Source: Anaerolineae bacterium (GTDB lineage: Bacteria; Chloroflexota; Anaerolineae; Anaerolineales; Anaerolineaceae). From it: a stretch of 64,000 nucleotides of DNA. The translations under genes and the position numbers were made by a program. The notes beneath the pieces were generated by a model. The model saw nothing but the letters and a program-made list of their open reading frames with translations, was not told the DNA's origin and ran no database searches. This document shows positions 8,127 through 13,575 of this stretch, one piece after another. The DNA is taken from the NCBI GenBank assembly GCA_013178295.1, contig JABLWW010000004.1, positions 62,001-126,000 on the forward strand, in the 5' to 3' direction. How positions within the stretch are numbered: position 1 is the stretch's first letter; each line of letters starts with the position of its first letter.

Positions 8127-9143
8127 ATGACTTCAAAAAAGCTTCCCATCGGCAAGTTGCCACCCGATATCCTGTCCAAACTGCTGAAAGCCGCGCCCCT
8201 GTTAGACCAGCGTGTTATTCTCGGCCCAGGAATTGGAATTGACTGCGCGGTTGTGGATATGGGGGACCGATTGCTGGTATTTAAGTCCGACCCGATTACC
8301 TTTGCCACCAACGAAATTGGGTGGTATGCCGTTCAAGTGAGCAGTAATGATATTGCCACAACAGGAGCAACACCTTGCTGGTATCTGGTAACAGCGCTAT
8401 TGCCGGAAAACACCACCGACGAGTCGCTTGTGCAGACAATCAGCAATCAGATTTATAACGCATGCCGCGAAAAAGGAATCTCGGTTATTGGGGGACATAC
8501 GGAGATCACATACGGCATTCACCGCCCGATTGTAGTAGGCACGCTGATTGGCGAGGTAACACGCGAACGTTTGATAATGCCATGCGGCGCCACACCTGGG
8601 GATCGCCTGTTGCTGACAAAAGGGGTGCCCATTGAAGCCGCCGCTATCCTGGCACGCGAATTCCCCCAGCGTCTGCTGCCCAAACTGGGCGCTGCCGAAA
8701 TCCAGGAGGCGGCTGATTATCTGTATCAGCCGGGTATCAGCATCCTGCGTGATGCTCAAATTGCGCTGGCAGCAGGCAGGGTAACCGCGATGCACGACCC
8801 AACAGAGGGCGGGCTGGCATCTGCCCTGTGGGAAATGGCGGAAGCCAGCGGCAGGACACTGGTTTTCCATCCCAATCAGGTGCCTGTTCCACCGCTGGCA
8901 AGCCGCATCTGCCGGGTTTTTGGGCTTGACCCCCTAGCCTGTATTGCTTCTGGTGCGCTGCTCATGAGTGTGGTTGATCACGATGCCGATGCCATTTGCA
9001 GTGCGCTCAATGCAGCGGGCATTGCGTGCCGCGAAATCGGCCGGGTGGAAGAAGGAGCAGCGCAGGTCTTGCAGGAGAACCCTTCGGGGCGCTACCGATA
9101 CCCCCGCCCGGAGCGGGATGAGATCACCAAAGTTTACGAATAA
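8127..9143 (+). CDS. AIR synthase-related protein (HypE/ThiL-like fold)
   Basis: A protein of 338 residues with the PurM/HypE/ThiL/SelD fold: an N-terminal ATP-binding half (GIGIDCAVVDMGDRLLVFKSDP, SSNDIATTGATPCWYLV) and a C-terminal half (MHDPTEGGLASALWEMAE). The nearest well-known relative is HypE, but the protein ends in DEITKVYE and lacks the PRIC-type C-terminal cysteine HypE needs to carry the cyano group. It is therefore probably an uncharacterised AIR-synthase-like ATP-dependent enzyme. No hydrogenase genes are nearby. It converges with galK, with only 4 nt between the stops. Confidence 0.85.
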   Translation: MTSKKLPIGKLPPDILSKLLKAAPLLDQRVILGPGIGIDCAVVDMGDRLLVFKSDPITFATNEIGWYAVQVSSNDIATTGATPCWYLVTALLPENTTDESLVQTISNQIYNACREKGISVIGGHTEITYGIHRPIVVGTLIGEVTRERLIMPCGATPGDRLLLTKGVPIEAAAILAREFPQRLLPKLGAAEIQEAADYLYQPGISILRDAQIALAAGRVTAMHDPTEGGLASALWEMAEASGRTLVFHPNQVPVPPLASRICRVFGLDPLACIASGALLMSVVDHDADAICSALNAAGIACREIGRVEEGAAQVLQENPSGRYRYPRPERDEITKVYE

Positions 9144-9147
9144 CCCT

Positions 9148-10296
9148 TCAAGATATCTGTCCAGATAGCTGGTCATCTGCTAACACCCTGGCGCCCTCGC
9201 TGGCGCGGCAGAGATACACTTCGCTATGGATGCCAGTCGCCTGAAAGTATTTGTCTCTCAACTGGCTAGTGAACTGATACACATGCTCCTCTCGTACCAG
9301 CGCCACACTGCAACCGCCAAACCCACCGCCAGTCTGGCGCATGCCCAAACAGCCGGGTAAACTTGCGCCAATTTCAACCAGAATATCAGACTCGCGGCAG
9401 CTGACTTCGTAAAAATCGCGCTGTGAAGCATGACCTTCAAACATCAGCTGCCCAAATGCCACCGCATCGCCTTTAATAAGACATTCCAGCGCTTGTTGAA
9501 CACGAACGCACTCCTCGACAACATGCCTGGCACGCCGATAGATGCTCTCTGTCAGCAAGTGGCGGTGTTTTGACAAATCTGCAGGCGACACATCGCGCAG
9601 CGCGTGTATCTCAGGCATCTCTTGTTGCAGCAGGCGCACTGCTTGCTCACAGACAGCGCGCCTCTCGTTATATGCTGAACCAACCAGTTCATGCCGCACA
9701 CCGGAATCAGCAACAACTATCGCGATGTCTGCGGGCAAAGCCACCGCTTTCCACTCCAGCGATCGCGTATCAAAGTACAGGGCACAGCCCTGCACGCCAT
9801 GCAAACAAACAAACTGGTCCATCAAACCGCATTTCATCCCCACATACTGACTTTCTGCTTCCTGGCAAATGCGCGCCAGGGTCATGCGGTCAACAGACCA
9901 GCCGCCCAGCATCTGCCACAGAACGGCAAAAGATACCTCAAGGGCTGCCGATGAACTCAAACCGGCGCCGATGGGAATATCCGAGAGAATTTTTGCACGG
10001 ATGCCTCTCACTGTCAGTCCATGCTCCTGCAATGCCCAGGCAACACCCGCCGGGTAAAGCGCCCAGGGGGGCAGGGGGTTTCCAGCCGCGTCGCGCTTTT
10101 CTTGCAGTTGACAGAGATCAAAGACAACTTCCTGATTGAAGGCAGGCGCTTCCACAATGACCTGGTGATGCAAGAGCGGTTCTGCCGTCAGGCGCACCGC
10201 GCGGTCAATTGCCACCGGAAGCACCGCCCCCTCATTGTAATCCACATGCTCGCCAAGCAGGTTTACCCGCCCGGGGGCAATGGAAAGACAGGACAT
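9148..10296 (-). CDS. galK: galactokinase
   Basis: A GHMP-family kinase of 382 residues that phosphorylates alpha-D-galactose at C1, first step of the Leloir pathway. The galactokinase signature PGRVNLLGEHVDYNEG is at residues 8-23, the ATP loop IGAGLSSSAALE near residue 113, and MRQTGGGFGGCSVAL near residue 345. The ATG at 10296 is preceded by TGGAGAAATAC, a good ribosome site. It begins inside the preceding GIY-YIG gene (34 bp overlap) and is last in an operon with an M50 protease and a prephenate-dehydrogenase-like gene. No galT or galE is next to it. Confidence 0.97.
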   Translation of the reverse strand: MSCLSIAPGRVNLLGEHVDYNEGAVLPVAIDRAVRLTAEPLLHHQVIVEAPAFNQEVVFDLCQLQEKRDAAGNPLPPWALYPAGVAWALQEHGLTVRGIRAKILSDIPIGAGLSSSAALEVSFAVLWQMLGGWSVDRMTLARICQEAESQYVGMKCGLMDQFVCLHGVQGCALYFDTRSLEWKAVALPADIAIVVADSGVRHELVGSAYNERRAVCEQAVRLLQQEMPEIHALRDVSPADLSKHRHLLTESIYRRARHVVEECVRVQQALECLIKGDAVAFGQLMFEGHASQRDFYEVSCRESDILVEIGASLPGCLGMRQTGGGFGGCSVALVREEHVYQFTSQLRDKYFQATGIHSEVYLCRASEGARVLADDQLSGQIS

Positions 10297-10547
10297 GTAT
10301 TTCTCCAGGCTTCAATCAAGCTTGCTTTTTGCCCGCGTGAGAGTGCCTTGATAGCGCGTTCACGACGCATGGCAGCCGACCTGTCAGGTAAACTTTCGGT
10401 GTATACCAGCTTGACCGGTCGACGCGTCCGGGTGTAGTGTGCCCCTTTTCCCTGGTTGTGTTGACGCTCGCGGCGCAGGGGGTCAGTTGTCCATCCAGTA
10501 TAAAAGGTGTTATCGACGCACAGGAGAATATAGCAATAAAAGCCCAT
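10263..10547 (-). CDS. GIY-YIG domain protein, YhbQ/UPF0213 type
   Basis: A single GIY-YIG domain of 94 residues, the usual size of the small UPF0213 family. The core is CYILLCVDNTFYTGWTTDP, followed by RRERQHNQGKGAHYTRTRRP, with the catalytic-type Tyr, Arg and downstream Glu (MRRERAIK) in the expected order. The family is nuclease-like and its cellular role is not settled. It starts 6 nt after the stop of the gene upstream and overlaps the galK start by 34 bp, so the two are probably translated from one mRNA. Confidence 0.93.
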   Translation of the reverse strand: MGFYCYILLCVDNTFYTGWTTDPLRRERQHNQGKGAHYTRTRRPVKLVYTESLPDRSAAMRRERAIKALSRGQKASLIEAWRNTCPVFPLPPGG

Positions 10548-10553
10548 ACAGTG

Positions 10554-11540
10554 CTATTTCTTCTCTTTTTGTCTGGGACGGATGCCCAGTAACCGCCCCA
10601 GCGCCTCGCCAGAGCGAGGCATTTCAGGAGATGGAATGAGACTGCCATAATCGTTCGATACGCGCTGGTTAAGCCAGGTACGCCGGTGTTGGTGAGCCTG
10701 TCGCAGAAGAGCATCCAGCTGGCTGGCGTCCTGAGCGGCAACCGCATCGCGCAGCTCTGTCAGCGCATTGTGCAGATTATCAAGGACGCGCAAAACATGC
10801 TCGCGGTTGAGCAGAAAGGTCTGAGATGGCGAAACTGCCGCGTTAAAGTCTTCTACCGCCTGCGTCCCCCATGCATAAGCCCGTCCAGCGAGTTTTCGTC
10901 CTTCCTGCCAGCCCGGCTGATCGCAAGTAGCATTGATCAGCGCCGCCGAACACAGGCAGGGCAGCAGCCTGGTTGCAGCCGTCATCCCGTCAAATTCGCG
11001 GGCATCAGCAAAAAGGGGCGCAGCGCCCAGCAATGCTGTCAGGTCAGCCGCCAACTTCAGGGCTGATTGATCTGTTCCGGGCGGACAAGTAATGACCATC
11101 AGGCTCTTCTGAAACAGATCAGCACGCGCGGCATCAATGCCCCGCTGCATTTCAAAGAGATGGTCAGGATTCAAACTGGGCGCCAGAGTAACAAAGAAGC
11201 GTTTTGGCGGCAAAATCGCTGTTGCCCAAGCGCTGACTGCCTCCATGCAGGATGAGGTATCCAAGACGACAGCCTCTTCCTTAAGGTCTTGGGCAACCTG
11301 TTCTAACACACTGCGAATCTCATCTACCGGGAGGGCAAGAAGGACAATATCAGCGTCTTCGACAGCGCGGTGCAGATTGAGCGCCACTTTGTCCACTGCG
11401 CCAATCCTCTCTGCCTTGCGCGCAGTTTCGACCTGCCGGTCATGTCCAACACGGATAATTTCCCCCTTGTGGTCAGAAAGCGCCAGACCAACCGAAGCGC
11501 CGATTTGACCAAGACCGATAATCGTAATCTGCATAGCCAT
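10554..11540 (-). CDS. prephenate dehydrogenase-like NAD(P)-binding protein, catalytic residues not conserved
   Basis: A protein of 328 residues with an N-terminal Rossmann fold (ITIIGLGQIGASVGLAL) and the helical dimer domain of the TyrA family. The usual catalytic signatures are altered. The HPMAG region reads APSLNPDHL, the HD pair before the last domain reads FD, and the SHLPH-like stretch reads TRLLPC. It is therefore probably not a working prephenate dehydrogenase, and no aromatic amino acid genes are nearby. I chose the ATG at 11540: it lies 2 nt after the M50 protease stop and has GGGAG 7 nt upstream. A longer reading from 11597 would lie inside the protease gene. Confidence 0.8.
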   Translation of the reverse strand: MAMQITIIGLGQIGASVGLALSDHKGEIIRVGHDRQVETARKAERIGAVDKVALNLHRAVEDADIVLLALPVDEIRSVLEQVAQDLKEEAVVLDTSSCMEAVSAWATAILPPKRFFVTLAPSLNPDHLFEMQRGIDAARADLFQKSLMVITCPPGTDQSALKLAADLTALLGAAPLFADAREFDGMTAATRLLPCLCSAALINATCDQPGWQEGRKLAGRAYAWGTQAVEDFNAAVSPSQTFLLNREHVLRVLDNLHNALTELRDAVAAQDASQLDALLRQAHQHRRTWLNQRVSNDYGSLIPSPEMPRSGEALGRLLGIRPRQKEKK

Positions 11541-11542
11541 AT

Positions 11543-12187
11543 TTACACTCCCAGAAGCAGCCTTGCAATGGCAGTAATCACGGGTCTGATCACCCAACCC
11601 ACAATGTCAATGCCAAGATAAGGCAGAAGGAAAAGGAGCGCAAGCAGGATAAGCGGACTATAGGGACGAATGCGCTCAAGAAAGCGAGCAAACGGAGGGG
11701 GAAAGAGAAACTCAGCCACCTTGTCGCCATCCAGAGGCGCCAGCGGTATCAGGTTAAAGAGCGCCAGTGCCAGATTGACAAAGATGAATTCGAGCAGAAA
11801 ACCCGACGGCGTCGGGAATAATCTGCCGCTTGATGCAGAGTATGGAACCAACCCCAGCCGTAGCGGGATGGCAGCTATAACTGCCAGTAGCAAGTTAGAA
11901 AGAGGTCCTGCGAGCGAGACCCACATCATGGCAGACGGTGAGCGCCGCCTGAGCGTGTACGGGTTAACTGGCACCGGTTTTGCCCATCCAAAACCGACAA
12001 AAAGCAACATTAGCGTGCCCATCAGGTCAAGATGAACCGCCGGGTTGAGCGTCAAACGCCCATTGTAACGCGGGGTATCGTCACCAAAACGGTCTGCCGT
12101 CCAGGCATGCGAGAACTCATGCACGCTAAAAGCAATCGTCAGGGTGATGATACGTGAAATAATCGTCGCAGGGGTCAGGTTGAGCAT
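11543..12187 (-). CDS. site-2 protease-like M50 family membrane metallopeptidase
   Basis: An intramembrane zinc protease-like protein of 214 residues. The zinc site HEFSH is in the first membrane segment and the second motif NPAVHLDLMGT follows in the usual place. Later hydrophobic segments match the compact M50B group. The start is the ATG at 12187, giving MLNLTPATIISRIITL; upstream codons run into the divergent promoter. A TGATATAAT box ends 7 nt before this ATG, so the transcript may have almost no leader. It heads a minus-strand operon ending in galK. The substrate is unknown. Confidence 0.92.
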   Translation of the reverse strand: MLNLTPATIISRIITLTIAFSVHEFSHAWTADRFGDDTPRYNGRLTLNPAVHLDLMGTLMLLFVGFGWAKPVPVNPYTLRRRSPSAMMWVSLAGPLSNLLLAVIAAIPLRLGLVPYSASSGRLFPTPSGFLLEFIFVNLALALFNLIPLAPLDGDKVAEFLFPPPFARFLERIRPYSPLILLALLFLLPYLGIDIVGWVIRPVITAIARLLLGV

Positions 12188-12221: not shown

Positions 12222-12431
12222 GTGCTACCCGATTTGCAATTAGAGGACACGCTTCGCTTGCGCAAGCCACACCCCTGTGGTGGAACGGAATGGAAGGTGT
12301 ATCGTTTAGGAGCCGACATTGGCTTGGAATGTTGCCGCTGCCATAGACGGGTGATGATACCCCGTCGTGAACTGGCGCGCCGCCTGAAAAGCATCCTGCC
12401 GCGAGGAGTCAATGATCCATCTTCAACCTGA
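12222..12431 (+). CDS. DUF951 family protein
   Basis: A 69-residue protein matching the small DUF951 family, recognised from LRLRKPHPCGGTEWKVYRLG, ADIGLECCRCHRRVMIPR and a basic C-terminal tail. The cysteines (CGG and CCRC) suggest a metal or RNA/DNA-binding fold, but the family has no established function. The start is a GTG placed 6 nt after a TATAAT box, so it may be read from a leaderless mRNA. It overlaps the next gene by 20 bp and is first in an operon that continues to tsaE, tsaB and rimI. Confidence 0.88.
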   Translation: MLPDLQLEDTLRLRKPHPCGGTEWKVYRLGADIGLECCRCHRRVMIPRRELARRLKSILPRGVNDPSST

Positions 12432-13575
12432 TCTGCCGCGTATCCTGTTTATCTTTTCCGATACAGGGGGAGGACACCGCAGCGCGGCGCAGGCAATTAT
12501 CGAAGCCATTCAGCTGGAATTTCCAGATCGCTTCGACTGCCAGATGGTGGACATCTTCCGCAGTTATATGCCGACGCCATTAAAATATGCGCCCGAGATA
12601 TACCCGCCGCTGTCGCGTATGCCAGAGCTTTGGGAACTTGGCTACCGTGCCAGCGACGGTCCGCGTCGCAAACGGTTGATTGATAGTGCTACATATCCAT
12701 ATATCAGCCGCGCCCTCAAGCGCTTTATTCGCGAGAATCCCTGTGAATTGTTTGTCTCTGTGCACCAGATGGTCAACACACCCATGCTTAAGGCACTGGC
12801 GGGCAGCGCAACGCCATTTGTGACAGTGGTCACAGACATGGTTTCGACACATGCGTTCTGGTACGATACCCGTGCCACCAAGGTGATTGTTCCCACGCAA
12901 GCCGCCTATCAACGGGGTTTGTGCATGGGGCTGAGACCAGAGCAAATGGAAGTGGTAGGCATGCCGGTTGCAGAACGCTTTTGTCAACCCCTTGCCGAAA
13001 AGAAGGAACTGCGCCGGCATTTGAACTGGGATACCAACATGCCCATTGTCCTGCTGGTCGGCGGCGGCGAGGGGATGGGGCCTTTAGCAAAAACTGCACG
13101 GGCAATCAACGAAGCACAGCTTCCCATTTCGCTGGTCGTTGTAACAGGACGCAACCGTCAGATAAAAGCCGAGCTTGAAAACCTTTCATGGAACATACCT
13201 GCGTATGTCTATGGTTTTGTTACCCAGATGCCGGAGTTTATGCGCGCTGCCGACATTCTGGTTACCAAAGCCGGCCCCGGAACGATCAGCGAGGCATTTA
13301 TTGCGCAGCTTCCCATGATTCTCTATAGCAAGATGCCAGGACAGGAAGACGGCAACGTGGATTTTGTGGTAAAAGAAGAAGCAGGGATTTGGGCGCCTAC
13401 ACCAGGTCGGGTGGTAGCAGCGTTACGCTACTGGCTGGAACACCCTGACGCGCGGGAGAAAGCCGTTGAATCCTGCCGCAGGCTGGCGCGCCCACAGGCT
13501 TCGCGTCAGATTGCACGCATCCTCGCCGCACAGGTCAATGTTCGCTATCAGGAGAAGGTGTATGCCGATTCTTGA
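12412..13575 (+). CDS. processive glycolipid glycosyltransferase, GT28 (MGDG synthase/UgtP-like)
   Basis: A 387-residue GT-B enzyme resembling monogalactosyldiacylglycerol synthases and the processive diacylglycerol glucosyltransferase UgtP. The N-terminal motif SDTGGGHRSAAQAI is characteristic of this group. The C-terminal donor site is seen in VTKAGPGTISEAFIAQLP and PGQEDGN. Members add sugars to diacylglycerol at the inner face of the membrane, giving membrane lipids or lipid anchors. It overlaps DUF951 upstream (20 bp) and tsaE downstream (14 bp), so translation is likely coupled along the operon. Confidence 0.88.
   Translation: MIHLQPDLPRILFIFSDTGGGHRSAAQAIIEAIQLEFPDRFDCQMVDIFRSYMPTPLKYAPEIYPPLSRMPELWELGYRASDGPRRKRLIDSATYPYISRALKRFIRENPCELFVSVHQMVNTPMLKALAGSATPFVTVVTDMVSTHAFWYDTRATKVIVPTQAAYQRGLCMGLRPEQMEVVGMPVAERFCQPLAEKKELRRHLNWDTNMPIVLLVGGGEGMGPLAKTARAINEAQLPISLVVVTGRNRQIKAELENLSWNIPAYVYGFVTQMPEFMRAADILVTKAGPGTISEAFIAQLPMILYSKMPGQEDGNVDFVVKEEAGIWAPTPGRVVAALRYWLEHPDAREKAVESCRRLARPQASRQIARILAAQVNVRYQEKVYADS

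Follow-up and report, generated by a model that had tools for sequence, protein, structure and literature searches.

What does a protein with the fold of prephenate dehydrogenase (TyrA) do once the residues of catalysis have been replaced? The question is raised by a gene in a 64,000-nucleotide stretch of DNA from an Anaerolineae bacterium, the whole of which we refer to as the window. A preliminary description of the window had reported a prephenate dehydrogenase-like protein without catalytic histidines and had suggested a sensor role or catalysis of another reaction. Our preferred reading of this TyrA-like protein, which we call TYRL, is that it is an NAD(H)-binding pseudo-dehydrogenase acting non-catalytically via partners, and we give this a probability of roughly 0.55. 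We found no open-access literature joining prephenate dehydrogenase with the terms pseudoenzyme, Anaerolineae or site-2 protease.

A TyrA fold with a replaced active site

TYRL is a protein of 328 amino acids, defined by its open reading frame, Pfam matches, fold and family comparison. The frame covers exactly positions 10,554–11,540 on the minus strand; the strand was absent from the preliminary description. The protein scores 78.3 bits against Pfam PDH_N (cut-off 26.5) and 21.9 bits against PDH_C, narrowly under the cut-off of 22. It is under the cut-off of every NCBIfam TyrA model shown (best 123.6 of 290), as is the complete TyrA of the same genome (226.6 of 290). The best PDB match of an AlphaFold2 model (pLDDT 92.8, pTM 0.86) was 4wji, with Z 31.9 and 2.4 Å over 289 residues, and Foldseek matched the model to 7mqv with an E value of 8.9e-22. 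As modeled, TYRL is a full two-domain TyrA fold, matching TyrA structures across nearly the whole of its folded part. It thus resembles the prephenate and arogenate dehydrogenases (PF02153 and PF20463; PDB 4wji, 7mqv and 3ggp) in its fold from end to end, in its Rossmann motif and in homology at the Pfam level.

The active site is another matter. The key residues of H. influenzae TyrA, as given in an excerpt of PMC2954222, are Ser179, His200, the His248-Asp249 pair and Arg297. In the same excerpt, His200 (His197 in E. coli) is the catalytic histidine and is supported by the His248-Asp249 pair, Arg297 (Arg294 in E. coli) is the substrate-carboxylate arginine, and Ser179, like Ser126 of A. aeolicus, contacts NAD and the 4-OH (PMC2954222). 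These residues were matched to alignment columns via TyrA motifs, the Arg297 column being a motif reading. When TYRL is aligned to TyrA homologues, its HPM region reads A120-P-S-L-N-P-D-H-L, which places Ala120 (11,181–11,183; this and the following residues on the minus strand) at the site that the excerpt assigns to the catalytic His. Phe183-Asp184 (10,989–10,994) stand at the site of the His-Asp pair, where EHD has become E182-F183-D184; of the pair, the Asp alone survives, and the preceding Glu182 is invariant in a 42-row alignment. Leu192 (10,965–10,967) lies at the site of the SHLP His, SHLPx having become T-R-L-L-P-C, and Gln227 (10,860–10,862) lies at that of the substrate-carboxylate Arg, in a replaced GFRDTTR loop. 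TYRL therefore differs from catalytic TyrA in the active-site His, the His of the His-Asp pair, the SHLP His and the substrate Arg, all of which are replaced.

The preliminary description had named the changes from HPMAG, the HD pair and SHLPH to APSLNPDHL, FD and TRLLPC, and the alignment agrees with it on all three and on the absence of the catalytic histidines (Ala120, Phe183 and Leu192); the loss of Arg at column 227 adds to them. It had also called for an alignment with TyrA proteins that might recover histidines at shifted positions. None was recovered, and H127, in NPDHL, was ruled out as a shifted histidine since this position is Tyr in the family consensus (LNPxYL). The Ser column is still occupied by Ser in TYRL (Ser97), as it is in just 3 of 62 His-less relatives.

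The Rossmann loop, G9-L-G-Q-I-G14 (11,499–11,516, minus strand), is a complete GxGxxG by sequence and family column conservation (G9, G11 and G14), and together with the PDH_N match and the model it bears out the TyrA fold and Rossmann motif claimed earlier for this frame. The middle Gly is missing in part of the family; all three are kept in 46/62 His-less and 35/43 partial rows. Asp34 (11,439–11,441, minus strand), at the end of strand 2, is Asp in 0.96 of the rows from its own order (n = 56), and by analogy with Rossmann folds in general we take it to be the NAD ribose position. Trp211 (10,908–10,910, minus strand), in QPGWxExRKLAG, is invariant in the 42-row alignment.

The loss is widespread in Anaerolineae

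We found 164 distinct homologues and aligned 161 of them, leaving out L070, L145 and L147 for their over-long frames. None of the three His is kept in 62 of the 161, so TYRL is neither a sequencing error nor a one-off. Among 103 rows of its lineage from its own class, read by residue, 62 have no His, 35 have one or two and 6 have three; living intermediates with three, two, one and no His exist in related orders. The Ser/His/His/Asp/Arg set, with Arg judged by alignment column or wider motif, is found in 0/56 rows of the order and 2/103 of the class, and in 10/10 TyrAs linked to AroF. Outside the class it is found in 31/48 rows. Since loci from beyond the order were hand-picked for family spread and mostly high scores, such shares of retained residues may be biased. 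The two rows of the class with the set are L093 and L096, in both of which the third His is Gln, and six others have all three His and no Arg; inactivity need not, then, hold for every member of the class.

At the level of the order, TYRL is present in 42 of 61 genomes (its own and 60 relatives), with TYRL and ordinary TyrA separated by score and gene place. The other 19 have no TYRL match, although a fragment of 28 residues occurs in G036 and several of these genomes are incomplete, and we conclude that TYRL is not essential for every lineage. In a class-level sample, 211 of 249 Anaerolineae genomes match TYRL at E ≤ 1e-50, a figure that counts the TYRL lineage rather than His-less copies. 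The eight AroF-linked TyrAs examined from the class score 121–161 bits and fall below this line (best L169, E 6.4e-48). From other classes, TyrAs linked to AroF or chorismate mutase can pass it (L153, 2.3e-60; L159, 1.9e-57; L163, 1.0e-53), so the 211 may contain a few ordinary TyrAs. Searches with the single TYRL protein gave no match in a viral collection and no relative among named genomes. With the closer alignment set as query, the best 80 of 81 relatives among named genomes were labeled Chloroflexi, Chloroflexota, Anaerolineae, Anaerolineales, Anaerolineaceae or with genera that include Thermanaerothrix (L222), Bellilinea (L243) and, once, Aquidulcis (L211).

Selection holds the NAD site and releases the pocket

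Loss of the active site, and the lack of a match in 19/61 genomes, would be expected if TYRL were a decaying, functionless pseudogene. We find this scarcely credible. His-less pairs more than 60% identical have dN/dS values of 0.10–0.29 (Nei-Gojobori, 16 overlapping pairs), which indicates purifying selection on a gene that is no relic; values for three-His pairs of other classes are 0.10–0.40 (six pairs, a seventh being saturated). The lineage is matched in most of the class, as noted above, and among the class matches listed an internal stop occurs in just three (G201, G234 and G238).

Conservation was then compared between substrate pocket and NAD site, using column lists that we chose from motifs and from the excerpt of PMC2954222. 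In three-His rows (n = 40), the pocket averages 0.83 against 0.59 for all columns, a value reached by 0/5000 random sets, and the NAD site 0.79 against 0.59 (10/5000). In the 56 rows of TYRL's own order, where the mean over all columns is 0.53, the fourteen pocket columns stand at 0.47 and the eleven NAD-site columns at 0.71, with 17/5000 random sets as high as the latter. The pocket is near background in both TYRL sets (0.47 and 0.48 versus 0.53 and 0.54). We conclude that the pocket has been freed of constraint and the NAD site retained, although conservation of the NAD loop may have a structural cause rather than a ligand.

These data bear directly on the possibility that TYRL works as an NAD(P)-dependent dehydrogenase on a new substrate, with other catalytic residues. 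A conserved NAD site under purifying selection is what such an enzyme would have, and there are positions conserved in TYRL but not in three-His TyrA, of which Pro125, Gly210 and Arg215 are examples; Asn124 and Pro125 are invariant within a closer eight-row set. The pocket, however, sits at background, the replaced His columns of His-less copies contain many residue types, and the Trp211 column is already Trp in 45/46 three-His TyrAs. Background conservation and mixed residues at the His columns indicate that no common new catalytic residue lies there, and we consider a new-substrate enzyme unlikely, if still a serious possibility. Of the earlier suggestion of a different reaction, a shared new reaction in the pocket finds no favor in these columns; the retained NAD site fits the NAD(H)-binding protein that we prefer.

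TYRL is kept where prephenate cannot be made

The preliminary description had proposed a search for a second, complete tyrA in the genome. There is one. The only other PDH_N match, L001, keeps all catalytic residues and lies in a shikimate operon, aroQ-aroKB-aroC-aroE-aroA-tyrA-aroF-CM (chorismate mutase), with pheA adjoining; these gene names are readings of translations, with aroC and pheA also identified via Pfam. L001 and TYRL share a superfamily and a genome. They differ in that L001, an AroF-linked TyrA of Anaerolineae, has complete catalytic residues, no C-terminal tail of the kind described below, a place in an aro operon and a separate position in the tree. For this last reason we do not favor TYRL as a recent duplicate of its genome's own TyrA.

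We screened the 61 genomes for chorismate synthase (AroC), prephenate dehydratase (PheA) and another TyrA. AroC or PheA is present in 26 of the 42 genomes with TYRL, and 25 of the 26 have another TyrA match above the cut-off (the exception is G038). INDEPENDENCE from prephenate is seen in the other 16 of the 42, where AroC, PheA and any further TyrA above the cut-off are all missing; nine of these genomes have a completeness of 90% or more and a contamination of 5% or less. The aromatic pathway is present in 8 of the 19 genomes without TYRL, and association between TYRL and the pathway over the 61 genomes (odds ratio 2.2, Fisher p 0.17) shows neither a tie nor an exclusion. That TYRL is not tied to the aromatic pathway is a further difference from catalytic TyrA. 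The 16 genomes argue that the role of TYRL is independent of prephenate: retained where, judged by gene content, prephenate cannot be made, TYRL is not there for prephenate oxidation.

Could TYRL nonetheless be a slow or arogenate-specific TyrA, with the absent groups supplied otherwise? It has the fold and the homology, and the copy in the window retains the Ser column and the Asp. Set against these are the replacement of the substrate Arg and of both the catalytic His and the His that partners it, the complete TyrA elsewhere in the genome, and the 16 genomes just described. We judge this very improbable, and regard the readings of residual TyrA activity and of a pseudogene as nearly closed. 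The part of the preliminary suggestion that holds is that TYRL is not a working prephenate dehydrogenase: residues are lost, a complete tyrA is present and the gene is kept without the pathway. A pseudo-dehydrogenase that binds NAD(H) agrees with these observations.

As a separate observation, two relatives carry a partial TyrA match and a prephenate dehydratase domain in frames of equal length (G041:C295:14078-15391, 507 aa; G054:C62:4908-6074, 467 aa). By coordinate arithmetic each pair is one frame, both belong to one family of the order, and they probably represent a TyrA-PheA fusion.

The protease neighborhood and the C-terminal tail

Gene order and Pfam confirm the operon with a site-2 protease, a GIY-YIG protein and galactokinase that had been described. 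The M50 (site-2 type) metalloprotease (11,543–12,187, minus strand; 214 aa) contains HEFSH and LDG, and its gene stops 2 bases short of TYRL. Its start is more likely the ATG at 12,187 than the longest-ORF start at 12,412, and a length of 214 aa resembles that of many relatives. Downstream of TYRL on the same strand are the genes for the GIY-YIG domain protein (10,263–10,547; Pfam and synteny) and galactokinase (9,148–10,296; Pfam/NCBIfam and synteny). Within the order TYRL usually lies behind M50, at some loci separated from it by a gene for an HD-domain protein (one of these scores 28.7 bits against Pfam HD, cut-off 22). GIY-YIG and galactokinase often follow, and a glycosyltransferase gene and tsaE/tsaB/rimI (gene names by reading) diverge from these loci. 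Counting linkage as lower bounds, given contig ends and 1.5 kb flanks (as also for HD), M50 adjoins the TYRL-lineage gene in at least 37/62 His-less and at least 29/43 partial rows. One wide locus, L062 (family f12), has TYRL without an adjacent M50.

Three further features of the region were recorded. The M50 start at 12,187 leaves about 224 bases to the divergent glycosyltransferase gene, with TATAAT directly before the ATG. That gene (12,412–13,575), of the MGDG synthase / diglucosyl diacylglycerol synthase type, diverges from the M50-TYRL operon and has the same place in many relatives. An AIR-synthase-like protein is encoded at 8,127–9,143, with matches to HypE, ThiL and SelD models that are all under their cut-offs.

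TYRL also differs from catalytic TyrA by an additional hydrophobic-basic tail. Residues 297–328 (10,557–10,652, minus strand) form a linker, a short hydrophobic-Gly stretch and a Lys/Arg end; in the AlphaFold2 model confidence is low at 301–306 and a short helix spans 310–317. The median number of residues from Trp289 on is 40 in the order and 42 in the rest of the class; in other classes it is 40 with M50 and 29 without, and in AroF-linked TyrAs, those examined having no such tail, it is 5. The hydrophobic-Gly then Lys/Arg motif is found in 47/56 tails of the order, 38/47 of the rest of the class, 17/40 three-His TyrAs and 0/10 AroF-linked TyrAs. The tail may resemble the C-terminal membrane-targeting stretch of MinD. 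Compared with their own shuffles, just 8/56 tails of the order have a helix amphipathicity above 0.9, no excess over composition, and an amphipathic membrane helix was rejected. Membrane association leans on the hydrophobic-basic pattern alone, and we do not claim membrane binding. Since the tail also accompanies three-His active sites, it is probably older than the catalytic loss.

A specific form of the pseudo-dehydrogenase reading casts TYRL as an NAD(H) sensor controlling the M50 intramembrane protease encoded next to it. The frequent linkage, the 2-base spacing in the window, the conserved NAD site and the hydrophobic-basic tail all fit. Yet M50 also lies beside 20/40 three-His TyrAs outside the class, which are the sole TyrA in 16/16 genomes checked, and L062 keeps TYRL with no M50 beside it. 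Linkage to three-His TyrAs looks older than His loss, which makes it weak evidence for a sensor, and we hold this form of the reading to be doubtful. The sensor suggested earlier from the protease operon thus keeps its operon and loses the operon as evidence for a new role. Neither the M50 linkage nor the tail is specific to the new role of TYRL, as both also occur with three-His TyrA; the more general reading, of an NAD(H)-binding pseudo-dehydrogenase acting via partners, is the one we retain.

TYRL and the M50-linked TyrAs of other classes

In the 16/16 genomes mentioned above, no PDH_N match over the cut-off exists besides the M50-linked three-His TyrA, and 10 of these 16 TyrAs carry the full Ser/His/His/Asp/Arg set. 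M50-linked TyrAs of this kind (for example L150, L156, L148 and L122) resemble TYRL in their M50 and often HD neighbors and in a similar tail, and by profile score those of other classes are nearer TYRL than is the TyrA of its own genome. They differ from TYRL in having the three His and in being the sole TyrA of their genomes. Directly behind the M50-linked TyrA lies aroA in L132, L148, L150, L156 and L164; in L148, L150 and L156 the cassette reads M50 - HD - TyrA - AroA, which puts aromatic biosynthesis genes next to those of a protease and an HD protein.

A quick tree places TYRL and the AroF-linked TyrAs of its class on opposite sides, with weak deep support (67–93); the latter fall within an 11-row clade with an SH-aLRT of 98. 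The tree comprises 130 of the 161 rows, omits the catalytic columns and half of the His-less rows, and is midpoint-rooted, a rooting under which most of the M50-linked three-His TyrAs from other classes fall on the AroF side. Given the weak deep branches and the midpoint root, we do not claim an exact branching order, and the link between TYRL and the M50-linked TyrAs leans more on neighbors, tail and profile score.

Of the out-of-class genomes with a His-deficient copy, 4/8 also have a second TyrA, of another type, as against 0/28 of those with a three-His copy (Fisher p 0.0012, for 36 genomes of our choosing and ignoring relatedness). The four, G376, G508, G437 and G444, represent four families. 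G439, G327, G483 and G305 have a His-deficient copy and no other TyrA type over the cut-off, and take-over by a second TyrA fails to explain them. G305 also has two TyrA-like copies of near-equal score (G305:C48 and G305:C19); the one that was read, L161, has two of the three His (HHG). With an M50-linked three-His TyrA as the sole TyrA in 16/16 genomes of other classes, TYRL looks, by sequence, like the ancestral tyrA, freed once a second TyrA took over.

A proposed role for TYRL

The descent of TYRL, its catalytic loss, purifying selection, independence from prephenate and NAD-site conservation are supported by these comparisons. We infer from them NAD(H) binding, the dimer state, the non-catalytic nature of the protein and its action via the tail or a partner. 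In the mechanism that we propose, TYRL would derive from the ancestral TyrA encoded in a Chloroflexota protease cassette, which comprises M50, tyrA and often HD. A second, AroF-linked TyrA in Anaerolineae would have relieved it of tyrosine synthesis, its catalytic residues would then have been lost, and it would have been kept as a dimeric NAD(H)-binding pseudo-dehydrogenase. NAD(H) would occupy the conserved cleft of the Rossmann domain, turnover would have ceased on the emptied substrate side, and a partner would sense the domain closure caused by NAD(H) via the conserved helical domain and the hydrophobic-basic C-terminal tail, with the readout perhaps at the membrane.

Extended to its furthest point, this would mean that a whole class has turned its ancestral tyrosine-biosynthesis dehydrogenase into a regulatory subunit that reads NAD(H) and acts together with an intramembrane protease at the membrane, retained even without the aromatic pathway; we think it improbable in that full form. 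More broadly, TYRL would represent a class-wide enzyme paralogue in which the substrate pocket has been released and the cofactor site and fold are still under selection. Finally, because TYRL scores above the PDH_N cut-off of 26.5 bits in genomes with no detectable AroC or PheA, pathway reconstructions in which a PDH_N match counts as TyrA would assign tyrosine synthesis to organisms that are likely Phe/Tyr auxotrophs.
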